Below, piece after piece: positions 6,210 to 61,491 of a stretch of DNA of 64,000 bases; position 1 is the first letter of the stretch; each line of letters starts with the position of its first letter. Both the position numbers and the translations under genes were made by a program. A model generated the notes under the pieces. The model saw only the letters and a program-made list of their open reading frames with translations, did not search any database and was not told the origin of the DNA. The DNA is from Serratia liquefaciens ATCC 27592 (GTDB lineage Bacteria > Pseudomonadota > Gammaproteobacteria > Enterobacterales > Enterobacteriaceae). The stretch covers positions 1,178,001 to 1,242,000 of the forward strand of contig NC_021741.1 in the NCBI RefSeq assembly GCF_000422085.1. The letters run 5' to 3'.

Positions 6210-6364
6210 ATGGGCGATAGGTGACGAAAGTTGCCCCGATGTGGTGCGGCGATCTGTCGTGGTGCAGCGCCCCGCATTTTTCATGAAACAAACGGTTGTT
6301 TCCGGGCGTGGCTTGTTGGATCATAGGCGGTTATGTGTAGCGCTTTGCATTGAGGAATAGTGAA

Positions 6365-8029
6365 ATGAGTGAGGCTGAAGCCCGCCCAACCAATTTTATC
6401 CGTCAGATCGTCGATGAAGATCTGGCTTCAGGGAAACATACGTCGGTACATACCCGTTTCCCGCCGGAGCCGAATGGTTATCTGCATATCGGCCATGCTA
6501 AATCCATTTGCCTGAACTTTGGCATCGCCAAAGATTACCAGGGCCAGTGCAACCTGCGTTTCGATGACACCAACCCGGTAAAAGAAGATATCGAGTTTGT
6601 TGAATCCATCAAACACGACGTGGAGTGGCTGGGCTTTGAGTGGAGCGGCAACGTCCGTTACTCCTCAGATTACTTCGATCAGCTGCACCAGTATGCGGTA
6701 GAGCTGATTAACAAAGGGCTGGCCTACGTCGACGAGCTGTCGCCTGAGCAAATCCGTGAATATCGCGGCAGCCTGACCTCTCCGGGCAAAGACAGCCCGT
6801 ACCGCGGTCGCAGCGTGGAAGAAAACCTGGCGCTGTTTGAAAAAATGCGCAACGGCGAATTTGCCGAAGGTAGCGCCTGCCTGCGTGCCAAGATCGACAT
6901 GGCGTCACCGTTTATCGTGATGCGCGATCCTGTGCTGTACCGCATCAAGTTCGCGGAACACCACCAGACCGGCAACAAATGGTGCATCTACCCGATGTAC
7001 GATTTCACCCACTGCATTTCCGATGCGTTGGAAGGGATCACCCATTCGCTGTGTACGCTGGAATTCCAGGACAACCGTCGTCTGTATGACTGGGTATTGG
7101 ACAACATCACCATCCCTTGTCATCCGCGTCAGTACGAATTCTCACGCCTTAATCTCGAATACGCCATCATGTCTAAGCGTAAGCTGAACCAGTTGGTGAC
7201 CGAGAAAATCGTTGAAGGTTGGGATGACCCGCGTATGCCGACCGTTTCCGGCCTGCGTCGTCGTGGCTATACCGCCGCATCCATCCGCGAATTCTGCCAG
7301 CGTATCGGCGTGACCAAGCAGGATAACAACGTTGAAATGGTGGCGCTCGAAGCTTGCATCCGTGAAGAGCTGAACGACAACGCACCGCGTGCGATGGCGG
7401 TGCTGGATCCGGTTAAGATTGTCATTGAAAATATGACTTCCGGCGTGGAAATGGTGACGATGCCTAATCACCCGAACAAGCCGGAAATGGGCAGCCGTGA
7501 AGTGCCGTTCAGCCGCGAGGTTTATATCGACCGTGCTGACTTCCGCGAAGAAGCCAACAAGCAATACAAGCGTCTGGTGCTGGGGAAAGAAGTGCGTTTG
7601 CGTAATGCCTACGTGATCAAAGCGGAACGCGTGGAGAAAGACGCAGAAGGCGAGATCACCACTATCTTCTGCAGCTACGATCCGGATACCTTGAGCAAAG
7701 ATCCTGCCGATGGCCGTAAGGTGAAAGGCGTGATCCACTGGGTGTCTGCCGAGCACGCGTTGCCGGCGGAAATTCGCGTGTACGATCGTCTGTTCAACGT
7801 GCCAAATCCGGCAGCGGCAGAGGACTTCCTTGCCACCATTAACCCTGAGTCGCTGGTAATCAAGCACGGCTTTGTGGAGCCAAGCCTGGCAACTGCACAG
7901 CCGGAAAAAGCCTATCAGTTCGAGCGTGAGGGCTATTTCTGCGCCGATAATCGTTACTCCTCGGCAGAGCATCTGGTGTTTAACCGCACCGTTGGTTTGC
8001 GCGACACCTGGGCTAAAATCGGTGCCTGA
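6365..8029 (+). CDS. glnS: GlnS, glutaminyl-tRNA synthetase
   Basis: Class I synthetase charging tRNA-Gln. 554 residues from ATG 6365 ([14 protein letters not shown]), the same length as I recall for E. coli. The HIGH motif is at residues 41-44 (YLHIGHAK) and the KMSKS-equivalent is MSKRKL at about 268. An upstream TTG at 6350 would add five residues but has no ribosome binding site advantage. It is a single-gene unit between terminators at 6178 and 8055. Confidence 0.98.
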
Positions 8030-8054
8030 GTGATAAGTGGTTAACGCAATAAGA

Positions 8055-8079
8055 GCGCAACTTCGGTTGCGCTTTTTTT
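8055..8079 (+). terminator. Intrinsic terminator after glnS
   Basis: GCGCAAC-TTCG-GTTGCGC, a 7-bp stem closed by a UUCG tetraloop, followed by seven T. Confidence 0.92.
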
Positions 8080-8235
8080 ATGTCTGTCGCCGTTATTTAC
8101 CTTTCCTGTTGCGATGTAGTTCGCTCAATCAATGTTTAAATTTTTATCTGGCCGTTGTATCCGTAATTTCTTGATATAAATCATCACTCATATAACATTG
8201 TCTTATATATTCGTGATGCGAATTAATGTCATCTG

Positions 8236-8247
8236 GAGAGCGCTCTC
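8236..8247. promoter_or_regulatory. LacI-family-type operator palindrome GAGAGC|GCTCTC
   Basis: A perfect 12-bp palindrome GAGAGCGCTCTC within TGGAGAGCGCTCTCAT. The central CG dyad and overall form are typical of LacI/GalR-family operators. It is about 360 bp upstream of chiP and 160 bp after the glnS terminator, so chiP is its likely target. The regulator is not in this window. Confidence 0.4.
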
Positions 8248-8441
8248 ATATTTTTTCCTCTGGCTGACTTTTTTGATTCGGCTGAAACCATTAATCGTCT
8301 TATATTGACCTCATATCATTATTTATTCTGATTTTATTGAATTTTTTATTCGACACTCTCCTTGCATAGCCGCGTAACAAAATCTCATCGATATGTGCTC
8401 TTTGTCATACTTTGACAAATCTCTCTGATATTTCATTTGAT

Positions 8442-8458
8442 AATTCGCGTCGCGAAAA
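8442..8458. promoter_or_regulatory. Candidate NagC operator upstream of chiP
   Basis: AATTCGCGTCGCGAAAA contains the perfect palindrome TTCGCG-T-CGCGAA with A/T-rich flanks, similar in form to NagC sites. NagC control of chiP is known in E. coli and Salmonella; the assignment here is by similarity and position. Confidence 0.5.
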
Positions 8459-8588
8459 ATAGTCTGTCTGTAGCAATAAGTGCTGTGGGGTTTTAGCCCT
8501 GTCAGCAATTTTTTTTACCCGATTGGGTTTTTATTGGCAGTCGTGCAGGGCAGTGGTGAACACGGGCGGCTGCAACTTTTAAAGTTAA

Positions 8589-8607
8589 GTCAAAGAGGAA
8601 TTTCATT
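8589..8607 (+). promoter_or_regulatory. ChiX small-RNA target on the chiP ribosome binding site
   Basis: GTCAAAGAGGAATTTCATT, ending just before the chiP ATG at 8608, is the exact complement of the ChiX seed as I recall it (AATGAAATTCCTCTTTGAC). The Shine-Dalgarno AGAGGA lies inside the pairing region, so pairing would block ribosome loading. ChiX repression of chiP is established in E. coli and Salmonella. The chiX gene itself is not in this window. Confidence 0.82.
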
Positions 8608-10011
8608 ATGGGTACGCACGGTGCTCAGCGTAAAACGCTGGCGCTCGCAGTCGCGGGTGCGCTGTTGGGAACAGGGTTTGCCATGGCCCCTGAGGCGAAA
8701 GCCGCAGGATTTATCGATGATTCCACGATGACCGGCGGCGTATATTACTGGCAACGTGAGCGTGACCGTAAAGATCTCAATCCGACCAGTGACGATTACA
8801 ATAAATACACCACCAACTTGTCGCATTCGACGGCCAACCTGAGCCTGGATTTTGCCTCGGGCTATGCCTGGGACATGTTCGGCCTGGACGTCGGCGCCTT
8901 TACCGCCATCGAGCTGGCTGAATCCAGCGCCAGCGGCCACCCGAATGAAATCGCGTTCTCTTCCAAAAACCGTACCTACGATGAAGACTACTCCGGCGAC
9001 AAAGGCGGCATCAGCCTGTATAAAGCCGCCGGTAAATTCAAATATGGCCCCGTCTGGGCACGTGGCGGTTATATCCAGCCAAGTGGCCAAACTCTGTTGG
9101 CGCCGCATTGGAGCTTTATGCCCGGCACCTATCAGGGTGCAGAGGCCGGTGCCAAGTTTGACTACGGCGATGCCGGTGAGTTGAGCTTCTCTTATATGTG
9201 GACCAATAAATATAAAGCGCCATGGCATATCGAGATGGACGACTTCCGCCAGAACGATAAAAAAACCGGTGTCTCCTATCTGCACTCGCTGGGTGCCAAA
9301 TACGACTTCAAAAACGATTTGGTGCTGGAGGCGGCATTCGGCCAAGCCCAGGGCTATGTGAATCAGTACTTCACCAAGGCATCTTATAAATTCGATCTGG
9401 TAGGCAACCCGCTCACCACCAGTTACCAATTCTATGGCACCGAAGACCGCATTAACGACAAGAACGACCCGAACAGTATTTACGACGGCCTGGCCTGGCT
9501 GCAGGCACTGACCTTTGGTTACACCACTGGCCAGTTCAACTGGCGCCTGGAAGGGACCATGGTCAAGGCCGAAGGCAACCAGGGCTACTTCCTGCAGCGT
9601 ATGACGCCAACCTACGCTTCTTCTAATGGCCGTCTCGACGTGTGGTGGGATAACCGTTCCGACTTTAACGCCAACGGCGAAAAAGCGGTTTATGCCGGGG
9701 TGATGTATGACCTGAGCAACTGGAACCTGCCGGGCATGGCGGTGGGCGGTTCTTACGTTTATGCCTGGGACGCCAAACCGAGCACCAACCCTATGTACGA
9801 TCAGAGCCAGCGTCTGAAAGAGAGCGCCTGGAGCCTGGACGCCATGTACACCATTCAGGAAGGCCGCGCCAAAGGCACGCTGCTGAAACTGCACTACACC
9901 CAATACGACAACCACACCAATATCCCAAGCTGGGGCGGGGGTTACGGCAACATCTTCCAGGACGAGAAAGACGTCAAATTCATGGTTATCGCGCCATTCA
10001 CCATTTTCTAA
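8608..10011 (+). CDS. chiP: ChiP, chitoporin (OprD-family outer membrane porin)
   Basis: Outer-membrane channel for chito-oligosaccharides. 467 residues: a signal peptide (about 1-32, ending EAKAAG), then a beta-barrel with alternating Tyr/Trp-rich strands, ending in the Phe expected of outer-membrane proteins (VIAPFTIF). It belongs to the OprD/YbfM family. The ATG follows AAGAGGAA, which is also the ChiX target. It is first in chiP-chiQ-ctb, an operon that takes in chitobiose and longer oligomers and splits them in the periplasm. Confidence 0.93.
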
Positions 10012-26425: not shown

Positions 26426-26546
26426 CCCTATGGATTTCGAGTTGCAGCTAGGCACCCAACTCGCTCATCCCCAGGCGCTTACTTGAGTAAGTAACTGGGG
26501 TGAGCGAGTGCCAGGTAACAACGCTGCGGCTCGAAAGGCGACGGGA
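26426..26546. repeat. ERIC element between kdpA and kdpB
   Basis: 121 bp. Ends TATGGATTTCGAGTTGCAGC and GCTGCGGCTCGAAAGGCGAC are inverted repeats. The core has CCCCAGGCGCTTACTTGAG and AAGTAACTGGGGTGAGCG, nearly the classic ERIC2 primer sequence. It begins 26 bp upstream of the kdpB start and ends 10 bp after the kdpA stop. Confidence 0.92.
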
Positions 26547-32547: not shown

Positions 32548-33291
32548 ATGCGTAACCTCGATCTTGAAAAGTTGATCAACACCGAACTGAATACCGTCGC
32601 GTTTCAGGATTACGGCCCTAATGGGTTGCAGGTGGAAGGGCGGCCCCATGTGCAGCGTATCGTTACCGGCGTTACCGCCTGTCAGGCGCTGCTGGATGCG
32701 GCGGTGGAACACCAGGCCGACGCCGTTGTGGTACATCACGGCTATTTCTGGAAAAACGAGGCACCCTCGGTACGTGGCATGAAGCGCAATCGGCTGAAAA
32801 CGTTGTTGAGCAATGATATCAACCTGTACGCTTATCACCTGCCGCTGGACGCGCATCCGGTGTTGGGCAACAACGCGCAGCTGGCTTATCAACTGGGCAT
32901 TCGGGTGATTGGCGAAGTGGAACCGCTGGTGCCGCATGGCGAATTCGAGCAGCCGCTGACCGGCGTTGAACTGCAGCAACGTATTGAGAGCCGCCTCGGA
33001 CGGGCCGTTCTGCACTGTGGTGATAACGCCCCGGCGCATATCCGCCGTGTGGCCTGGTGCACCGGTGGCGGTCAGGGCTTTATCGACAGCGCCGCGCGAT
33101 TTGGTGTCGATGCTTTCATCACCGGGGAAGTTTCTGAGCAAACCATTCACAGCGCGCGTGAAATGGGCATTCACTTTTTTGCCGCCGGGCATCATGCCAC
33201 TGAACGCGGCGGCGTCAAGGCACTCGGTGAATGGCTGGCTGAGCAGCATGGTTTTGATGTGACCTTTATCGATATCCCGAATCCCGCCTGA
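32548..33291 (+). CDS. ybgI: YbgI, Nif3-family dinuclear-metal protein
   Basis: 247 residues, the usual length. The Nif3/DUF34 metal ligands are visible as VVHHGYFWKNE near the N-terminus and GHHATERGG near the C-terminus. E. coli YbgI is a hexameric toroid with two metals per active site; some members have GTP cyclohydrolase-like activity but the physiological role is unsettled. It is last in the DUF523-phrB-phosphodiesterase-ybgI unit and is followed by a terminator, separating it from pxpB. Confidence 0.95.
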   Translation: MRNLDLEKLINTELNTVAFQDYGPNGLQVEGRPHVQRIVTGVTACQALLDAAVEHQADAVVVHHGYFWKNEAPSVRGMKRNRLKTLLSNDINLYAYHLPLDAHPVLGNNAQLAYQLGIRVIGEVEPLVPHGEFEQPLTGVELQQRIESRLGRAVLHCGDNAPAHIRRVAWCTGGGQGFIDSAARFGVDAFITGEVSEQTIHSAREMGIHFFAAGHHATERGGVKALGEWLAEQHGFDVTFIDIPNPA

Positions 33292-33302
33292 TTTCCCTCC
33301 GA

Positions 33303-33340
33303 GGATCCAGCCCGGTTTATACCGAGGCTGAATCCTTTTA
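33303..33340 (+). terminator. Terminator after ybgI
   Basis: GGATCCAGCC-CGGT-TTAT-ACCG-A-GGCTGAATCC followed by TTTTA. The outer stem has one mismatch. Confidence 0.75.
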
Positions 33341-33443
33341 ATAGCCTAATCCCTTATTTTCTCGAAGGTTGTTCTATTGACAGCCGGAGCGCTGTCGCGC
33401 ATAACTGATGTGTTTTCATCGCGATAATAATAAGGAGAAAAGG

Positions 33444-34100
33444 GTGCAACGAGCACGATGTTACCTGTTAGGTGAACGCGCGGTAGTGCTTGAACTGTCG
33501 CCGCCGGTGACGCTGCCAAGCCAGCAGCGGATTTGGGCGCTGGCCGAAAAGCTGAATCATCATCCCGACGTGCGCGAAGTGGTGCCCGGCATGAACAACC
33601 TTACGCTGCTGCTTAAGACGCCGCAGGCCGACGCCGAAATGATGTTAGCGCTGTTGCAACAGGGATGGGACAGCGAGGAGATCCTGGTGCCGGAATCACG
33701 TCAGGTGGATATTCCGGTGATCTACGGCGGCCAGGACGGGCCCGATCTGGATGAGGTAGCGCGCCACACCGGCATGACTCCGCAGCAGGTGGTGGAGTGT
33801 CACTCCTCTGCGGATTACGTAGTCTATTTCCTTGGTTTTCAACCTGGTTTCTCCTACATGGGCGGCATGCCGGACAAGTTGGCAACGCCGCGCCGTGCCG
33901 AACCGCGCCTGTCGGTGGCGGCTGGCTCCGTGGGTATCGGTGGCAGTCAGACCGGTATTTATCCGCTGGTGACCCCCGGCGGCTGGCAGTTGATTGGCCG
34001 TACACCTCTGGCGTTGTTTAATCCCTATGAAATGCCGCCGACCCTGCTGCGCCCTGGCGACAGCGTGCGGTTTGTGCCACAGAAGGAGGGCGTATGCTGA
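33444..34100 (+). CDS. pxpB: PxpB, 5-oxoprolinase subunit B
   Basis: ATP-dependent 5-oxoprolinase (PxpABC) opens 5-oxoproline to glutamate. 218 residues from GTG 33444 ([18 protein letters not shown]), 7 nt after AAGGAG; upstream codons in frame lack support. The carboxyltransferase-like (KipI) fold has [25 protein letters not shown] and [24 protein letters not shown]. Its stop overlaps pxpC by 7 nt. First gene of pxpBCA. Confidence 0.96.
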
Positions 34101-35026
34101 AGATCCTGCGTGCGGGCATTTACACCACGGTGCAGGATTTGGGCCGTAACGGTTTCCGTCGTCTGGGCGTCAGCCAGGGCGGCGCGCTCGACGAACCCGC
34201 GTTGAGGATCGCCAACCTGCTGGTGGGTAACGATACGAATGCCGCCGGGCTGGAAATCACCCTCGGGCAATTTAGCGCCGAATTTGCCCGGCCAGGCTGG
34301 ATCGCGCTGACCGGCGCCGGTTGTGATGCGCAACTGGACGGCAAGCCGCTGTGGACCGGCTGGCGTTATCAGGTCAGTGCGGGCCAACAGCTGATGTTGA
34401 AAATGCCAAAACGTGGCATGCGCAGCTATCTGGCGATAGACGGTGGTATCGCCGTGCCAGAAATACTCGGCTCACGCAGCACCGACAACAAAGCCGCTTT
34501 TGGCGGGCTGGAAGGGCGTAACCTGCGAGATGGCGACTGCCTGCCGTTGGGAGCGGGGCGCGAATTGCAAAAGCAAAGCACCGGCGTGAAACAACTGTTG
34601 TTTAACAACCGTATCCGGGCCTTGCCGGGGCCGGAATATGACGAATTCAGCGAAGAGGCGAAGGAGTTTTTCTGGCGTACTGCCTGGCAACTGAGCCCGC
34701 AGAGCAACCGCATGGGCTACCGCTTGCACGGCAGCAGCGCGCTGAACCGTACCACCGAACGCGAAATGTTGTCGCATGGCCTGTTGCCGGGCGTGGTGCA
34801 GGTGCCGCATAACGGTCAGCCTATCGTGTTGATGGCCGATGCTCAAACTACCGGTGGTTATCCGCGCATTGCCTGCGTGATCGAAGCCGATCTCTATCAT
34901 TTGGCGCAAATCCGTCTGGGCGAAGCTATCCACTTTGTACCCTGTACCCTGGCCCAGGCGCAGCGCGCCAAGGCCGAACAGGAGCACTTTATCCAACAGA
35001 TTGCCTGGGGGTTAGATGAACGTTGA
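34094..35026 (+). CDS. pxpC: PxpC, 5-oxoprolinase subunit C
   Basis: 310 residues, KipA/biotin-dependent carboxyltransferase-like domain. Seen: [46 protein letters not shown] at the start and [16 protein letters not shown] near the end. It overlaps pxpB at its start and pxpA by 11 nt at its end, so the three subunits are translationally coupled. Confidence 0.96.
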
Positions 35027-35753
35027 TTTGAATGCCGATCTTGGCGAGGGCTGCGCTAACGATCAGGCGCTGCTGCAATTGGTCAGTTCGGCCAATATCG
35101 CCTGCGGTTTTCACGCCGGAGATGCGCAAACCATGCGCCAGTCGGTGCGTTGGGCGCTGCAGTACGGCGTGGCGATTGGCGCGCATCCGAGTTTTCCCGA
35201 TCGCGAGAACTTTGGTCGTACCCGCATGCAGTTGCCGCCGGAAACGGTGTATGCGCAGGTGGTGTATCAGCTCGGTGCGCTGGCGGCGATTGCCCGTGCA
35301 GAAGGCGGGGTAATGGTGCACGTGAAGCCGCACGGCATGTTGTACAACCAGGCGGCCGTGGAGCCGGCGCTGGCGGAAGCCATTGCCCGCGCGGTTAAAG
35401 CAGTCGATCCGGCTTTGCGCCTGGTGGGGCTGGCGGGCAGCGAACTGATCCGCGCCGGTGAAAAGCAAGGTTTGGCGACGCGACAAGAGGTCTTTGCCGA
35501 TCGCGGTTATCAGGCCGATGGCACGCTGGTACCACGGGGCCAGCCAGGGGCTTTGATTACCAGCGACGAACTGGCGCTGGCGCAAACGCTGGAAATGGTA
35601 CGCCACCATCGGGTTCGCACTCTGGACGGCACCTGGGCCGCCGTTCGGGCCGAAACCGTCTGCCTGCATGGCGACGGTGAACATGCGCTGGAATACGCGC
35701 GCACGCTGCGCCAACGTTTTGCCGTGGAAGGCATTAACGTCAGCGCAGAATAA
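35016..35753 (+). CDS. pxpA: PxpA, 5-oxoprolinase subunit A (LamB/YcsF family)
   Basis: 245 residues. The [16 protein letters not shown] start, [12 protein letters not shown] and [11 protein letters not shown] are conserved LamB/YcsF motifs. With PxpBC it forms the prokaryotic 5-oxoprolinase. It is followed by an ERIC element and then by DUF969-DUF979-pcp. The link between pxp and pcp is biochemical, since Pcp releases the 5-oxoproline that Pxp consumes. Confidence 0.96.
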
Positions 35754-35788
35754 AAATAATTAAATATACACAACACACAACACAATAA

Positions 35789-35911
35789 TACCCAATGGAT
35801 TTCGAGTCACCGCTAGGCAGCAAGGGGGTAAATCTCCAGGAGCTTACTTAAGTAAGTGACTGGCGTTTGCCCATGCAGCTAACAACGCTGTGGCTTGAAA
35901 GACGAGGGGGA
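35789..35911. repeat. ERIC element between pxpA and the DUF969 gene
   Basis: 123 bp. Starts TACCCAATGGATTTCGAG, ends GGCTTGAAAGACGAGGGGG. The core has CTCCAGGAGCTTACTTAAG and TAAGTGACTGGCGTTT, an ERIC core with a slightly decayed right arm. It fills most of the pxpA-DUF969 gap and ends 14 bp before the DUF969 start, so that gene's ribosome binding site is just outside it. Confidence 0.88.
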
Positions 35912-35924
35912 AAAGGAAGGCGCT

Positions 35925-36656
35925 ATGGAACAGGTTGTTAACTTATGGCCACTGATTGGCATTGCCGCCATCGTGGTCGGGTTTGTTTTACGCTTTAACC
36001 CCGTGCTGGTGGTGATTGTCGCCGGCATTATCACCGGGCTGGCGGCATTGATGCCGCTGGATGTGATCCTGGAAAAACTCGGTGAGGGCTTCTTGAATAC
36101 CCGTAACCTGCCGCTGATCCTGCTGCTGCCGTTGGCGGTGATCGGTTTGCTGGAACGCCACGGTTTGAAAGAGCGTGCACAGGCATGGATCGCCAAAATC
36201 AAAAGCGCCACCGCTGGACGTTTGTTGATCGTCTATCTGTTCGTGCGTGAAATTACTGCCGCCATGGGGCTGACCAGCCTGGGCGGGCACCCACAAATGG
36301 TGCGTCCGCTGTTAGCACCCATGGCGGAAGGGGCTGCGGAAAACCGTTACGGTGAGCTGCCGGAGCGTACGCGTCACCGCCTGCGTGCCATGTCTGCCGC
36401 GACGGATAACGTCGGGTTATTCTTTGGCGAAGACATTTTTGTGGCCTTCGGCGCGATCATCTTCATGCACAACTTTATGCTGGAATCCGGCGGTATCCAG
36501 ACCGAGCCGCTGCATATCGCCTTGTGGGGCATTCCCACCGCTATCTTCGCCTTCCTGATCCATGCGTTTCGACTTTACCGGATGGATAAGCAGCTCAGCG
36601 CTGAATTGTCGCAGCTTAATCAGGCGGCACTGCAGGCCAAAGGAGATGCCCAATGA
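35925..36656 (+). CDS. DUF969-family membrane protein (predicted transporter subunit)
   Basis: 243 residues from ATG 35925, 6 nt after AAGGAAGG. About five hydrophobic segments (LWPLIGIAAIVVGFVL, PVLVVIVAGIITGLAAL, LPLILLLPLAVIGLL, FVAFGAIIFMHNFML, IALWGIPTAIFAFLIHAF) and a charged C-terminus. DUF969 genes usually pair with DUF979 genes, as here, and the pair often sits beside pcp. Its 3' end overlaps the DUF979 gene by 4 nt. Import or export of 5-oxoproline or pyroglutamyl peptides is my inference from position. Confidence 0.85.
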   Translation: MEQVVNLWPLIGIAAIVVGFVLRFNPVLVVIVAGIITGLAALMPLDVILEKLGEGFLNTRNLPLILLLPLAVIGLLERHGLKERAQAWIAKIKSATAGRLLIVYLFVREITAAMGLTSLGGHPQMVRPLLAPMAEGAAENRYGELPERTRHRLRAMSAATDNVGLFFGEDIFVAFGAIIFMHNFMLESGGIQTEPLHIALWGIPTAIFAFLIHAFRLYRMDKQLSAELSQLNQAALQAKGDAQ

Positions 36657-37672
36657 CTTTCCAACAACAATATCTCTATTGGCTGGCCGGCGTGGTGCTG
36701 CTGATTGTCGCCGTGATGTCGTTCCGCGATCGCGCCAACCCGCGGCGTATTACCACCGGTTTGTTCTGGGCGTTGTACGGTGTGGTGTTCCTGGTTGGCG
36801 ACTGGACCTATAGCCTGTTGGGCGACGTGCTGGGGGAGGGCAGCAACGAAAAACGCATGCTGCATATTATCGTCGGCGTGGTGGTCGTGGTGATGGCGTT
36901 GATCGCCGGCTTTGGCGGTGTGCGTCTGGGGAGCTATCATCAACGCACCCCACAGCAGCGCGAAGAGAGCGCGAAACGTCTGGGTAACCGGCTGTTTATT
37001 CCGGCGCTGGCCATCCCGGTGGTGACGGTGGTTGGCGTGCTGCTGTTCAACAATATTCCGGCATTGCAAACGGCGGTATTCGGCAGCGGTAACCACGCAA
37101 CCTTGATTACTCTGTTCTCGATGACCGTCGGTTGTTTGCTGGGGTTGGTCATTGCGGTGAAAATGACCCATGAGAAAGCGCTGCAGCCGATTCAGGAAGC
37201 GCGCCGCCTGCTGGACTCCATCGGTTGGGCGTTTATTTTGCCGCAAATCCTCGCCACGCTGGGCCTGCTGTTTACCTCCGCAGGCGTCGGTACCGCCATC
37301 TCTCATCTGACTCAAGAGTATCTGGCGGTGGATAACCGCTTTATCGCGGTGGCGGTTTATGCCATCGGTATGGCGCTGCTGACCATGGTGATGGGTAACG
37401 CCTTTGCTGCTTTCCCTATCGTCACCGCCGGTATCGGTATCCCGATCCTGGTGCTGCAACACGGTGGTAACCCGGCTGTGATGGCGGCCATCGGCATGTT
37501 TTCCGGCTATTGCGGCACGCTGATGACGCCAATGGCTGCTAACTTTAATATTGTACCGGCGGCGTTGCTGGAATTGCCGGACAAGAATGCGGTGATCAAG
37601 GCGCAGGTACCGACCGGGGTGCTGCTGCTGCTGGTGAACGTGTTCCTGCTTTATTTCCTGATGTTCCTTTAA
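36653..37672 (+). CDS. DUF979-family membrane protein (predicted transporter subunit)
   Basis: 339 residues with about nine hydrophobic segments, for example YWLAGVVLLIVAVMSF, MLHIIVGVVVVVMALIAGF, FIPALAIPVVTVVGVLLF and the Gly-rich TMVMGNAFAAFPIVTAGIGIPIL, which looks like a substrate-pathway segment. MFSGYCGTLMTPMAANFNIVPAAL resembles re-entrant loops of ion-coupled carriers. Its ATG overlaps the DUF969 stop and pcp follows 9 nt later, so the three form one operon. No experimental function is known to me. Confidence 0.85.
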   Translation: MTFQQQYLYWLAGVVLLIVAVMSFRDRANPRRITTGLFWALYGVVFLVGDWTYSLLGDVLGEGSNEKRMLHIIVGVVVVVMALIAGFGGVRLGSYHQRTPQQREESAKRLGNRLFIPALAIPVVTVVGVLLFNNIPALQTAVFGSGNHATLITLFSMTVGCLLGLVIAVKMTHEKALQPIQEARRLLDSIGWAFILPQILATLGLLFTSAGVGTAISHLTQEYLAVDNRFIAVAVYAIGMALLTMVMGNAFAAFPIVTAGIGIPILVLQHGGNPAVMAAIGMFSGYCGTLMTPMAANFNIVPAALLELPDKNAVIKAQVPTGVLLLLVNVFLLYFLMFL

Positions 37673-37681
37673 GGAGAACGC

Positions 37682-38326
37682 ATGCAAAAGGTATTGATCA
37701 CGGGCTTTGAGCCCTTTGGCGGCGAGCGCGTTAATCCTTCGTGGGAAGTGGTAAAGCAACTCAATGATATGGAGCTTTCCGGCGCGCGCATTATTGCGCG
37801 CCAGCTGCCCTGCGTATTCGGCGCGGCGCTGGAAGCGCTCAATGAGGCGATTGATGACGTGCAGCCAGTGATGGTGTTAGCTATCGGCCAGGCCGGTGGA
37901 CGGACTGACATTACGCTGGAACGCGTGGCAATCAATATCGACGATGCGCGTATTCCGGATAATCAGGGGCAGCAGCCGATAGACGAGCCTATCGTTGAAA
38001 AGGGGCCTGCGGCCTATTTCAGTACCTTGCCCGTCAAGGCTATGGTCGAGGCGATGCGTGAAGCGGGTATCCCTGCTTCGGTATCGCAAACGGCCGGCAC
38101 CTACGTTTGCAACCATGTGATGTACGGCTTGTTGCACCGTTTGAGCAAACAGCAGGCGATCAAGGGCGGGTTCATTCATATCCCTTATCTACCGGAGCAG
38201 GCTGCTGCCCATCCTGGTGCCCCCAGTATGGCGGCAACCACGGTCCTGTTTGCGCTGGAATTGGCCGTTTCCATTGCGCTGCAGGTTGAACACGATTTGA
38301 AAGTCGTCGGTGGCGCGACGCATTAA
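37682..38326 (+). CDS. pcp: Pcp, pyrrolidone-carboxylate peptidase
   Basis: Removes N-terminal pyroglutamate from peptides, releasing 5-oxoproline. 214 residues, the usual length. The C15 signature is complete: [16 protein letters not shown], catalytic Glu in [12 protein letters not shown], Cys in [14 protein letters not shown] and His in [11 protein letters not shown]. Third gene of DUF969-DUF979-pcp and just downstream of pxpBCA, so the locus covers release, possible transport and ring-opening of 5-oxoproline. Confidence 0.97.
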
Positions 38327-38383
38327 TCGCCGTTTTTACCCCGGCGCGGTTTGTCGCGTCGGGGGCTACTCAGGAGTGATTCT

Positions 38384-39175
38384 ATGCCGGAAGGACCGGA
38401 GATTCGCCGGGCGGCAGATGCATTGGCAGAGGCGGTGATCGACCAGCCGCTGACCGACGTCGGTTTTGCCTTTCCCCAGCTTAAACACTATCGCGACAGG
38501 TTAATCGGTGAGCGGATCATTGCTATCGAACCGCGCGGCAAGGCGTTACTGACCCACTTTTCCAATGGGCTGACGCTTTATAGCCATAACCAATTGTATG
38601 GCGTGTGGAAGGTGGTGAACGCGGGGGAAACGCCTGAAACCAAACGGGATCTGCGCGTACGGCTGGAAACGGCGGAGCGGGCAATTCTGTTGTACAGCGC
38701 GTCAGATATTACCCTGGGGCCGCGCGAAGAAATTGAACAGCATCCGTTTTTGCAACGTATCGGCCCCGACGTGCTGGATATGACGCTGACGGAAACCGCG
38801 GTAGAACAGCGACTGTTGTCGCCGAGGTTTCGTCGCAGGCAACTGGGTGGCATGTTGCTCGATCAGGCGTTTCTCGCCGGGCTGGGCAATTACCTGCGTG
38901 CCGAAATTCTCTGGCAGGCCGAACTGGCACCGCAGCATAAGCCGCAGGATCTGTCACCGGAGGCTTTGCAACGGCTGGCAAAGGCCCTGCTGGCGGTACC
39001 GAGGCTGTCTTACCAGACTCGCGGGCAGGTGGATGAGAACCGTCATCACGGCGCGTTATTCAGTTTCAAGGTGTTTCACCGCAGCGGTGAACCCTGTGAA
39101 CGTTGCGGCGCGATGATCGTCCGTACCTCGTTGTCGTCGCGGCCGTTTTATTGGTGCCCAGGCTGTCAGAAATAG
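38384..39175 (+). CDS. nei: Nei, endonuclease VIII (oxidised-pyrimidine DNA glycosylase)
   Basis: 263 residues from ATG 38384, 7 nt after [20 protein letters not shown] provides the N-terminal Pro nucleophile and catalytic Glu exposed after Met removal. The H2TH region has [13 protein letters not shown], and the C-terminal zinc finger has [11 protein letters not shown] ... [10 protein letters not shown]. It removes oxidised pyrimidines and nicks the strand. It stands 57 nt after pcp and may be read through from that operon. Confidence 0.96.
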
Positions 39176-39176
39176 C

Positions 39177-39204
39177 AAAAAAAAAGCCGCCCATCGGGCG
39201 GCTT
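39177..39204 (-). terminator. Terminator for gltA (usable from both sides)
   Basis: AAGCCGCCC-ATC-GGGCGGCTT with a long A-run on the left, which reads as a T-run for the minus-strand gltA transcript. It is 28 nt beyond the gltA stop and directly after nei. Confidence 0.9.
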
Positions 39205-59443: not shown

Positions 59444-59959
59444 ATGCAACTGAACAAAGTGCTGAAAGGGCTTCTGCTGGCACTGCCAGTCCTGGCTGTA
59501 GCAGCTTGTAGTTCTAACAAAAGCGCAAACAACGACCAATCTGGTCTGGGCGCTGGCGCTGGCACTGGTACAGAAAACGGCAGCAGCAACCTGTCTTCTG
59601 AAGAACAAGCTCGTCTGCAGATGCAAGAACTGCAGAAGAACAACATTGTTTACTTCGGTCTGGACAAGTATGACGTGAGCTCTGAGTTCGCTCAGATGCT
59701 GGACGCGCACGCTGCATTCCTGCGTAACAACCCGTCTTACAAAGTGACCGTAGAAGGCCACGCGGATGAGCGCGGTACGCCGGAATACAACATTGCTCTG
59801 GGTGAGCGTCGTGCTAACTCCGTGAAAATGTACCTGCAAGGTAAAGGCGTTTCAGCTGACCAAATCTCTATCGTTTCTTACGGTAAAGAAAAACCAGCAG
59901 TACTGGGCCACGACGAAGCGGCTTATGCTAAAAACCGTCGTGCAGTTCTGGTTTACTAA
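59444..59959 (+). CDS. pal: Pal, peptidoglycan-associated lipoprotein
   Basis: 171 residues from ATG 59444. Signal peptide with lipobox AVAAC (lipidated Cys about 21), a Gly/Ser/Asn linker and an OmpA-like peptidoglycan-binding domain with [35 protein letters not shown] and [13 protein letters not shown]. The outer-membrane end of the Tol-Pal bridge. Confidence 0.98.
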
Positions 59960-59968
59960 GAGAATCGC

Positions 59969-60769
59969 ATGAACAGTAACTTCAGACGTCACTTGTTGAG
60001 TCTGTCGTTACTGGTTGGCGTAGCGGTCCCATGGGCCGCTACTGCCCAAGCGCCAATCAGTAATGTCGGCTCCGGCTCGGTCGAAGACCGTGTCACCTCG
60101 CTTGAGCGCATCAGCAATGCTCAAGGCCAGCTTTTAAACCAACTCCAGCAACAACTCTCTGACAATCAGCGCGATATTGACTCGCTCCGCGGGCAAATCC
60201 AGGAAAGCCAATATCAACTGAATCAGGTCGTTGAACGCCAAAAGCAAATCTATCAGCAGATGGATAGCATCAGCCAGGGCGGCGCTCAGAGCTCTGCTGC
60301 CGCAGCGGGTGCCGCGGGTGGAGCAGCAGCGGCTGCGTCCTCCGACGGTGCTGACAGTGCGTCTGCGGGCGCTACAGCAGCAGCGCCGGCCAGCAAGGGT
60401 GATGAAAACAGCGACTACAATGCCGCTGTTTCATTGGCGCTGGAAAAAAAACAGTATGACCAGGCAATTTCTGCTTTTCAGACCTTCGTAAAACAGTACC
60501 CAAAGTCTACTTACCAGCCTAATGCCAACTATTGGCTGGGCCAGTTGTATTACAACAAGGGTAAGAAAGACGATGCGGCTTACTATTATGCGGTCGTGGT
60601 GAAGAATTACTCAAAGTCACCTAAGGCGCCGGACGCCATGTACAAGGTAGGTATCATCATGCAGGAGAAAGGGCAGGCCGATAAAGCCAAAGCCGTGTTC
60701 CAGCAGGTGATTAAACAATACCCAACCAGTGCGGCGGCCAAACAGGCGAAAAGTCGCGTAGCCGGTTAG
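59969..60769 (+). CDS. cpoB: CpoB (YbgF), Tol-Pal associated TPR protein
   Basis: 266 residues: signal peptide (about 1-27, ATAQA), coiled-coil trimerisation segment (about 38-92, VEDRVTSLERISNAQGQLLNQLQQQ), an Ala/Gly/Ser linker (about 105-145) and TPR repeats (DYNAAVSLALEKKQYDQAISAFQTFV, YYNKGKKDDAAYYYAVVV). It coordinates outer-membrane constriction with PBP1B. It starts 9 nt after pal and ends the operon. Confidence 0.96.
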   Translation: MNSNFRRHLLSLSLLVGVAVPWAATAQAPISNVGSGSVEDRVTSLERISNAQGQLLNQLQQQLSDNQRDIDSLRGQIQESQYQLNQVVERQKQIYQQMDSISQGGAQSSAAAAGAAGGAAAAASSDGADSASAGATAAAPASKGDENSDYNAAVSLALEKKQYDQAISAFQTFVKQYPKSTYQPNANYWLGQLYYNKGKKDDAAYYYAVVVKNYSKSPKAPDAMYKVGIIMQEKGQADKAKAVFQQVIKQYPTSAAAKQAKSRVAG

Positions 60770-60948: not shown

Positions 60949-61024
60949 GGGTCGTTAGCTCAGTTGGTAGAGCAGTTGACTTTTAATCAATTGGTCGCAG
61001 GTTCGAATCCTGCACGACCCACCA
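60949..61024 (+). tRNA. tRNA-Lys (anticodon UUU)
   Basis: 76 nt with encoded CCA. Acceptor GGGTCGT pairs with ACGACCC, anticodon loop CTTTTAA and T-loop GGTTCGAATCC. First gene of a five-tRNA cluster in the place of the E. coli lysT-valT-lysW cluster. Confidence 0.98.
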
Positions 61025-61056
61025 ATTTCTGAAGTAGTAGCAGTAACCACGTCAGT

Positions 61057-61132
61057 GGGTGATTAGCTCAGTTGGTAGAGCATCTCCTTTACACGGAGGG
61101 GGTCGGCGGTTCGAGCCCGTCATCACCCACCA
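61057..61132 (+). tRNA. tRNA-Val (anticodon UAC)
   Basis: 76 nt with encoded CCA. Acceptor GGGTGAT / ATCACCC, anticodon stem CTCCT-TTACACG-AGGGG region with anticodon TAC. It lies 32 nt after the first tRNA-Lys. Confidence 0.98.
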
Positions 61133-61139
61133 CTGCTGT

Positions 61140-61215
61140 GGGTCGTTAGCTCAGTTGGTAGAGCAGTTGACTTTTAATCAATTGGTCGCAGGTTCGAATC
61201 CTGCACGACCCACCA
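61140..61215 (+). tRNA. tRNA-Lys (anticodon UUU), second copy
   Basis: Identical in all 76 bases to the copy at 60949, including CCA. Only 7 nt separate it from tRNA-Val, so the pair is processed from one precursor. Confidence 0.98.
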
Positions 61216-61284
61216 TTTCAGAATTGTTTTTCCTCAATCCAGGCTTCGGTTTGTATTGGCTGTTCAGCAGTAAACCACGTCAGT

Positions 61285-61360
61285 GGGTCGTTAGCTCAGT
61301 TGGTAGAGCAGTTGACTTTTAATCAATTGGTCGCAGGTTCGAATCCTGCACGACCCACCA
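61285..61360 (+). tRNA. tRNA-Lys (anticodon UUU), third copy
   Basis: Identical to the other tRNA-Lys copies. The spacer before it ends CAGTAAACCACGTCAGT, repeated before tRNA-Val and the fourth copy, which marks tandem duplication of gene plus spacer. Confidence 0.98.
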
Positions 61361-61415
61361 TTCTTGCAGCGAGTTCCTCTCCTGCTTACGCGGTTCAGCA
61401 GTAAACCACATCAGT

Positions 61416-61491
61416 GGGTCGTTAGCTCAGTTGGTAGAGCAGTTGACTTTTAATCAATTGGTCGCAGGTTCGAATCCTGCACGACCCACCA
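61416..61491 (+). tRNA. tRNA-Lys (anticodon UUU), fourth copy
   Basis: Identical to the other tRNA-Lys copies. Its upstream spacer differs from that of copy three by one base in the repeated part (CACATCAGT). No clear T-tailed terminator follows; ACCCCCCCTTATTAAAA-like sequence lies just downstream. Confidence 0.98.

Follow-up and report, generated by a model that had tools for sequence, protein, structure and literature searches.

A conserved pxpBCA-DUF969-DUF979-pcp gene run in Serratia liquefaciens and a probable two-subunit carrier for 5-oxoproline

5-Oxoproline (pyroglutamate) is glutamate in cyclised form. It arises spontaneously from glutamine and glutamate, and PxpT has been described as a carrier for it in Corynebacterium glutamicum (PMC13274462). 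A different carrier, formed by membrane proteins of the DUF969 and DUF979 families, has been proposed; passages of PMC11467057 and PMC12795558 credit the idea to Niehaus 2017 and present a structural model of the complex. A metabolic model gives the pair pyroglutamate transport (PMC6904757), and a Campylobacter jejuni cj0552-4 mutant, whose operon comprises DUF969, DUF979 and DUF2891, is described in PMC12795558 as having lost growth on 5-oxoproline, a preliminary result. Genes for DUF969 and DUF979 were also listed as over-expressed in a study of macrolide resistance in Streptococcus pneumoniae (PMC6563660). Here the pair was analysed in a 64,000-nucleotide stretch of Serratia liquefaciens ATCC 27592 (contig NC_021741.1; hereafter the window), in which it lies at 33444-38326 together with genes for 5-oxoprolinase (PxpABC) and pyroglutamyl-peptidase I (Pcp). 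The original prediction, made from the sequence of this stretch, had presented the pair as a new transporter; the carrier idea is already known, with its structural model and preliminary mutant phenotype in print.

We favour, with a probability of roughly 0.78, the reading that DUF969 and DUF979 together make up a single two-subunit secondary carrier of the ion transporter superfamily type. The carrier would bring 5-oxoproline into the cell, PxpABC would open it to glutamate using ATP, and cytosolic Pcp would add to the 5-oxoproline pool by releasing pyroglutamate from peptides. The run pxpBCA-DUF969-DUF979-pcp would then be one old catabolic unit, into which a repeat of the enterobacterial repetitive intergenic consensus (ERIC) type inserted later in this lineage. 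The gene identities, the conserved linkage, the occurrence of DUF969 and DUF979 as a pair, their association with either of two unrelated 5-oxoprolinase types and a moderate fold likeness of DUF979 are observed; the substrate, transport direction, coupling ion and heteromer in this organism we infer.

The six genes and their order were confirmed. As predicted, pxpBCA, the repeat, DUF969, DUF979 and pcp lie on one strand, with an overlap of 4 nucleotides (nt; ATGA) between DUF969 and DUF979 and a spacing of 9 nt between DUF979 and pcp. Upstream, pxpB and pxpC overlap by 7 nt and pxpC and pxpA by 11 nt; pxpB starts with GTG. All six genes scored above their Pfam cut-offs. The three PxpABC subunits also exceeded curated cut-offs and are encoded by adjacent genes, and the neighbouring DUF969 and DUF979 genes each belong to their Pfam family; NCBIfam models identify the pxp genes, pcp and nei, and none exists for DUF969 or DUF979. 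The closest solved chain to PxpA was 1xw8, labelled UPF0271 protein ybgL (E 5.9e-117), and the alignment of Pcp with solved 3lac spans all of Pcp (E 2.4e-84), including the segments that hold what we take to be the Glu, Cys and His catalytic residues of this C15 peptidase. DUF979 is single-copy in this genome, a second pcp, more distant in sequence, lies elsewhere (G000:C1:3202537-3203130), and a search of the genome found no DUF2891. The DUF979 relative in S. marcescens is 95% identical, and the nearest loci are those of S. proteamaculans and S. grimesii (98-99%).

Linkage was assessed among close relatives, using the best 80 of 190 confirmed loci, a set of close relatives that is not representative of the wider family, and a family sample of 149 genomes. 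All 80 loci carry pxpA, DUF969 and DUF979, and 76 carry pcp. In the family sample DUF979 was found in 51 genomes, DUF969 in 51, pxpA in 86 and pcp in 44; among the 51 with DUF979, one is doubtful (G007, 26.0 bits) and two hold broken or partial copies (G026 and G100). DUF969 was present in 50 of these 51 genomes. The enrichment beside pcp and pxp genes that the original prediction called for was found, with pxpA in 50/51 genomes with DUF979 vs 36/98 without it, and pcp in 36/51 vs 8/98, although Fisher values overstate this evidence because related genomes are not independent. DUF969 (within 500 nt), pxpA and pcp (within 5 kb) lay on the same strand at 27 of 52 DUF979 places, and DUF969 with pxpA, with or without pcp, at 36. 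One locus (L173, genome G074) keeps pxpBCA and pcp, but its DUF969 is shortened and DUF979 gave no match there; the membrane pair seems to have been lost naturally.

A phylum sample of 299 genomes extended the comparison. DUF979 matched in 37 genomes, 36 of them above the cut-off; G264 fell below it and is not among the 36, and the 37 loci exclude two further sub-cut-off pieces, in G270 and G322. The link to PxpA was modest here (23/36 vs 101/263 genomes; odds ratio 2.8, p 6e-3). Hydantoinase_B was searched in 20 of the 36 DUF979 genomes, including all 13 without PxpA, and was found in 13, of which 12 were among those without PxpA. Thus a PxpA or Hydantoinase_B match was present in 35 of 36 genomes. 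The best matches of the 12 genomes lie in open frames of 1187-1255 codons, which we take to be the length of a fused 5-oxoprolinase. The family also includes hydantoinases, and the search covered DUF979 genomes; from the frame length and the place beside DUF969, these genes are probably 5-oxoprolinases. A Hydantoinase_B-type gene stands beside DUF969 on the same strand in L156-L159 and L163 and on the opposite strand in L164, and likewise beside DUF969 on the Sphingomonas plasmid L107. Two unrelated 5-oxoprolinase types beside one membrane pair are the strongest contextual sign for the substrate.

The original prediction had left the choice of cargo between 5-oxoproline and pyroglutamyl peptides. 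Immediately 3' of DUF979, the 37 phylum loci carry pcp in 18 cases, DUF2891 in 17 and neither in two (G406 and G347), both of which have pxpBCA upstream. Sixteen of 69 plasmid records matching DUF979 were picked for host spread. There pcp follows DUF979 in nine (Comamonadaceae, Vibrio, Embleya and six Lactobacillales), DUF2891 in five (Klebsiella L092, Niveispirillum L094, Burkholderia L104, Gemmatirosa L105 and Sphingomonas L107), both in Streptomyces L095 and neither in Novosphingobium L102. If the pair imported pyroglutamyl peptides to be cut inside by Pcp, with 5-oxoproline only a product, the pcp gene directly 3' at 18/37 phylum and 10/16 plasmid loci would be expected, as would the lack of a pxp gene in the stretch fetched at seven of those ten plasmid loci. 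Peptide import is nevertheless unlikely: 19 of the 37 phylum loci lack pcp at that place, the two loci with neither third gene still have pxpBCA, at five loci an oxoprolinase gene of another type adjoins the pair on its own strand, PMC12795558 describes the C. jejuni mutant as tested with free 5-oxoproline, and the likeness of DUF979 is to carriers of small anions. The best-supported cargo of the two-part carrier is 5-oxoproline.

Very unlikely is the converse, that the pair exports Pcp-released 5-oxoproline, or exchanges it, in organisms unable to open it. One genome, G159, has DUF969-DUF979-pcp and yielded neither PxpA nor Hydantoinase_B, and the six Lactobacillales plasmid loci carry pcp without a pxp gene in the stretch fetched; against this, 35 of the 36 DUF979 genomes hold one or the other match, pxpBCA is in the same run here, and the cj0552-4 mutant lost growth on 5-oxoproline supplied externally, as PMC12795558 gives it. 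The original prediction had placed the membrane proteins exactly between release and use, which is true of the gene order; since a hydropathy scan (no signal-peptide program was used) detected no hydrophobic stretch at the N terminus of Pcp or of any Pxp protein, both steps are probably cytosolic, with no membrane between them.

The membrane proteins themselves were compared with known carriers. By hydropathy scan DUF969 has four hydrophobic segments at a cut-off of 1.6 and six at 1.2 or 1.4, and DUF979 has 8 to 10, depending on the cut-off. An alignment of 12 sequences (A2) showed the conserved DUF979 motifs MGNxFAA and GTLxTPMAANFN, and DUF979 also matched CitMHS below the cut-off of that family. 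A sequence search of solved structures to E 1 returned no chain for DUF979; for DUF969 it returned 23, not one of them below E 0.13. A DUF979 model of moderate quality gave no Foldseek match in the PDB under E 0.001, so the fold argument is carried by re-alignment of Foldseek's own candidates, in which the model resembled the TRAP, INDY and Pho90 carriers. The DUF969 model (predicted local distance difference test, pLDDT, 58) was discarded as too poor to compare. Homology of DUF969 to DUF979 as a second repeat was not detected (hhalign probability 0.6%, 12-row profiles). The substrates of the carriers that resemble DUF979 include succinate, sulfate, phosphate and sialic acid; this breadth, the modest PxpA link in the phylum sample and the use of PxpT/YcsG for 5-oxoproline in other bacteria (as described in PMC13274462) would suit a pair that carries another solute, such as a dicarboxylate, and is merely co-regulated with 5-oxoproline use. 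The occurrence of the pair beside pcp and beside either of two unrelated 5-oxoprolinase types, together with the C. jejuni phenotype reported in PMC12795558, makes this highly improbable.

The alternation of pcp and DUF2891 offers a testable first role for the DUF2891 family, and it is the fresh lead most worth following. All 36 DUF979 genomes carry one or the other (16 pcp only, 17 DUF2891 only, three both), compared with 22 of the 263 genomes without DUF979. For these counts pcp was accepted only under E 1e-60, which kept 26 of 53 matching genomes, the others matching much more weakly; with all 53 counted, pcp is in 19/36 DUF979 genomes vs 34/263 others. In G301 pcp comes after DUF2891, and in G347 DUF2891 and DUF979 lie far apart. 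Tentatively, with the odds slightly against it, DUF2891 may act in 5-oxoproline metabolism as an enzyme not recognised so far, standing in for Pcp in the operon; it could be a pyroglutamyl peptidase unrelated to Pcp, or have some other part in making or preparing 5-oxoproline. At one locus without DUF969 or DUF979 an OPLAH-type gene overlaps DUF2891 by 4 nt (L187:1162-5945), and another, in a genome without DUF979, has the run DUF2891-Nramp-pxpA-pxpB-pxpC (L180:4746-9460). Weighing against this role, 13 of 15 DUF2891 loci away from DUF979 had none of the pxp, pcp or OPLAH-type genes within roughly 5 kb (tblastn, 23 queries, E 1e-6), which counts against a tight link between DUF2891 and the pathway outside these operons. 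The 15 loci comprise 12 from the 15 phylum genomes that carry DUF2891 and lack DUF979, and three from genomes with a distant DUF979; three genomes with partial or weak DUF2891 matches were left out. Solved structures of DUF2891 (8ieu, 8iev) bear that name only, and the passages found in PMC12795558, PMC10040529 and PMC10434189 state no function for it; a table of halotolerance co-occurring clusters in PMC10040529 lists a hydantoinase B/oxoprolinase protein, DUF969, DUF979 and DUF2891 near one another. If this role were true, the C. jejuni cj0552-4 phenotype may be partly due to DUF2891. Klebsiella accounts for 39 of the 69 plasmid records, and its plasmid L092, typed conjugative, has at 6255-8965 a second such pair, in which DUF979 is 47% identical, with DUF2891 after it.

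The repeat between pxpA and DUF969 is probably a later arrival in an older gene run. With at most two mismatches allowed, its palindromic core (35836-35863) matched the 5.28 Mb genome 22 times forward and 25 times in reverse; two places matched on both strands, which makes 45 places, and the reversed-pattern control had no match. The element is therefore a dispersed palindromic repeat of many copies, probably of the ERIC family. The order ybgI-pxpBCA-DUF969-DUF979 occurs in 73 of the 80 relatives' loci, and in 57 of those 73 the gap from pxpA to DUF969 is at most 94 nt between aligned ends. Eight Serratia loci (L012, L015, L016, L018-L020, L022 and L023) have a gap of 58-69 nt and lack the element, L013 and L017 have internally shortened copies, and L014 has the element with its core. 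Across the 80 loci the core lies in four pxpA-DUF969 gaps, that of L014 and those of Citrobacter L033, L036 and L039. The 171-nt gap here (35754-35924) has a strong predicted RNA fold (z -5.05), so an effect of the repeat on the downstream genes is possible. A second core lies elsewhere in the window (26471-26498).

In the E. coli record examined the gene order is ybgI-pxpB-pxpC-pxpA-nei and 35 nt separate pxpA from nei, so that the DUF969-DUF979-pcp block is lacking there, as the original prediction had stated. A megablast of window 33300-39200 matched 4296 of 5426 E. coli genomes in part and none with a place covering 80% of the query, a search that can miss strongly diverged copies; the ten matches listed cover pxpBCA only. 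The block had been called an insert. Because the full block follows ybgI at the same spot in Serratia, Yersinia, Citrobacter, Klebsiella, Pantoea and Erwinia loci, loss by E. coli is likelier, judged from gene order.

The features are collected in Table 1. A ybgI-type gene upstream of pxpB ends at 33291. Scans for promoters and terminators fared no better than on shuffled sequence (one promoter-like site vs a mean of 2.3; nine terminator-like sites vs 7.5). Elsewhere in the window are an Rfam match to the CpoB/ybgF thermometer (59860-59998, 166 bits) and a run of five tRNA genes (60949-61491), of which four are for tRNA-Lys and one is for tRNA-Val.

Table 1 Features of the 5-oxoproline locus, in window coordinates
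Feature	Position	Strand	Basis or remark
pxpB, 5-oxoprolinase subunit B (CT_C_D)	33444..34100	+	TIGR00370 285 bits, cut-off 145.55; PF02682
pxpC, 5-oxoprolinase subunit C (CT_A_B)	34094..35026	+	NF045499 564 bits, cut-off 500; PF02626
pxpA, 5-oxoprolinase subunit A (LamB/YcsF)	35016..35753	+	NF003812 477 bits, cut-off 378
ERIC-type repeat, pxpA-DUF969 gap	35798..35910		limits approximate, set by eye
DUF969 membrane protein, probable carrier subunit	35925..36656	+	PF06149 303.5 bits, E 9.9e-91
DUF979 membrane protein, probable carrier subunit	36653..37672	+	PF06166 402.3 bits, E 1.8e-120
pcp, pyroglutamyl-peptidase I	37682..38326	+	NF009676 342 bits, cut-off 199
nei	38384..39175		NCBIfam; next after pcp

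A dedicated unit for 5-oxoproline uptake and breakdown would be a widespread nitrogen and carbon route, because the compound forms spontaneously. Compared with the DUF969/DUF979 pair proposed in the literature as a 5-oxoproline carrier, the pair of S. liquefaciens shares the Pfam families, the linkage to 5-oxoprolinase and the proposed role. It differs from that of C. jejuni in its third gene, which is DUF2891 there and pcp here, and in having pxpBCA directly upstream; the Serratia-type operon, with pcp and no DUF2891, is the cleaner test of the carrier. PxpT/YcsG, an NRAMP-like protein, is similar in that, by the account in PMC13274462, its gene is tied to pxpABC and required for growth on 5-oxoproline, but it is a single protein unrelated to DUF969 or DUF979. 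The TRAP QM, DASS/INDY and AbgT carriers of the ion transporter superfamily (Pfam clan CL0182) align best with the DUF979 model; whereas known members have two repeats per protomer, as stated in a passage of PMC11467057, here two short proteins are proposed as the unit.

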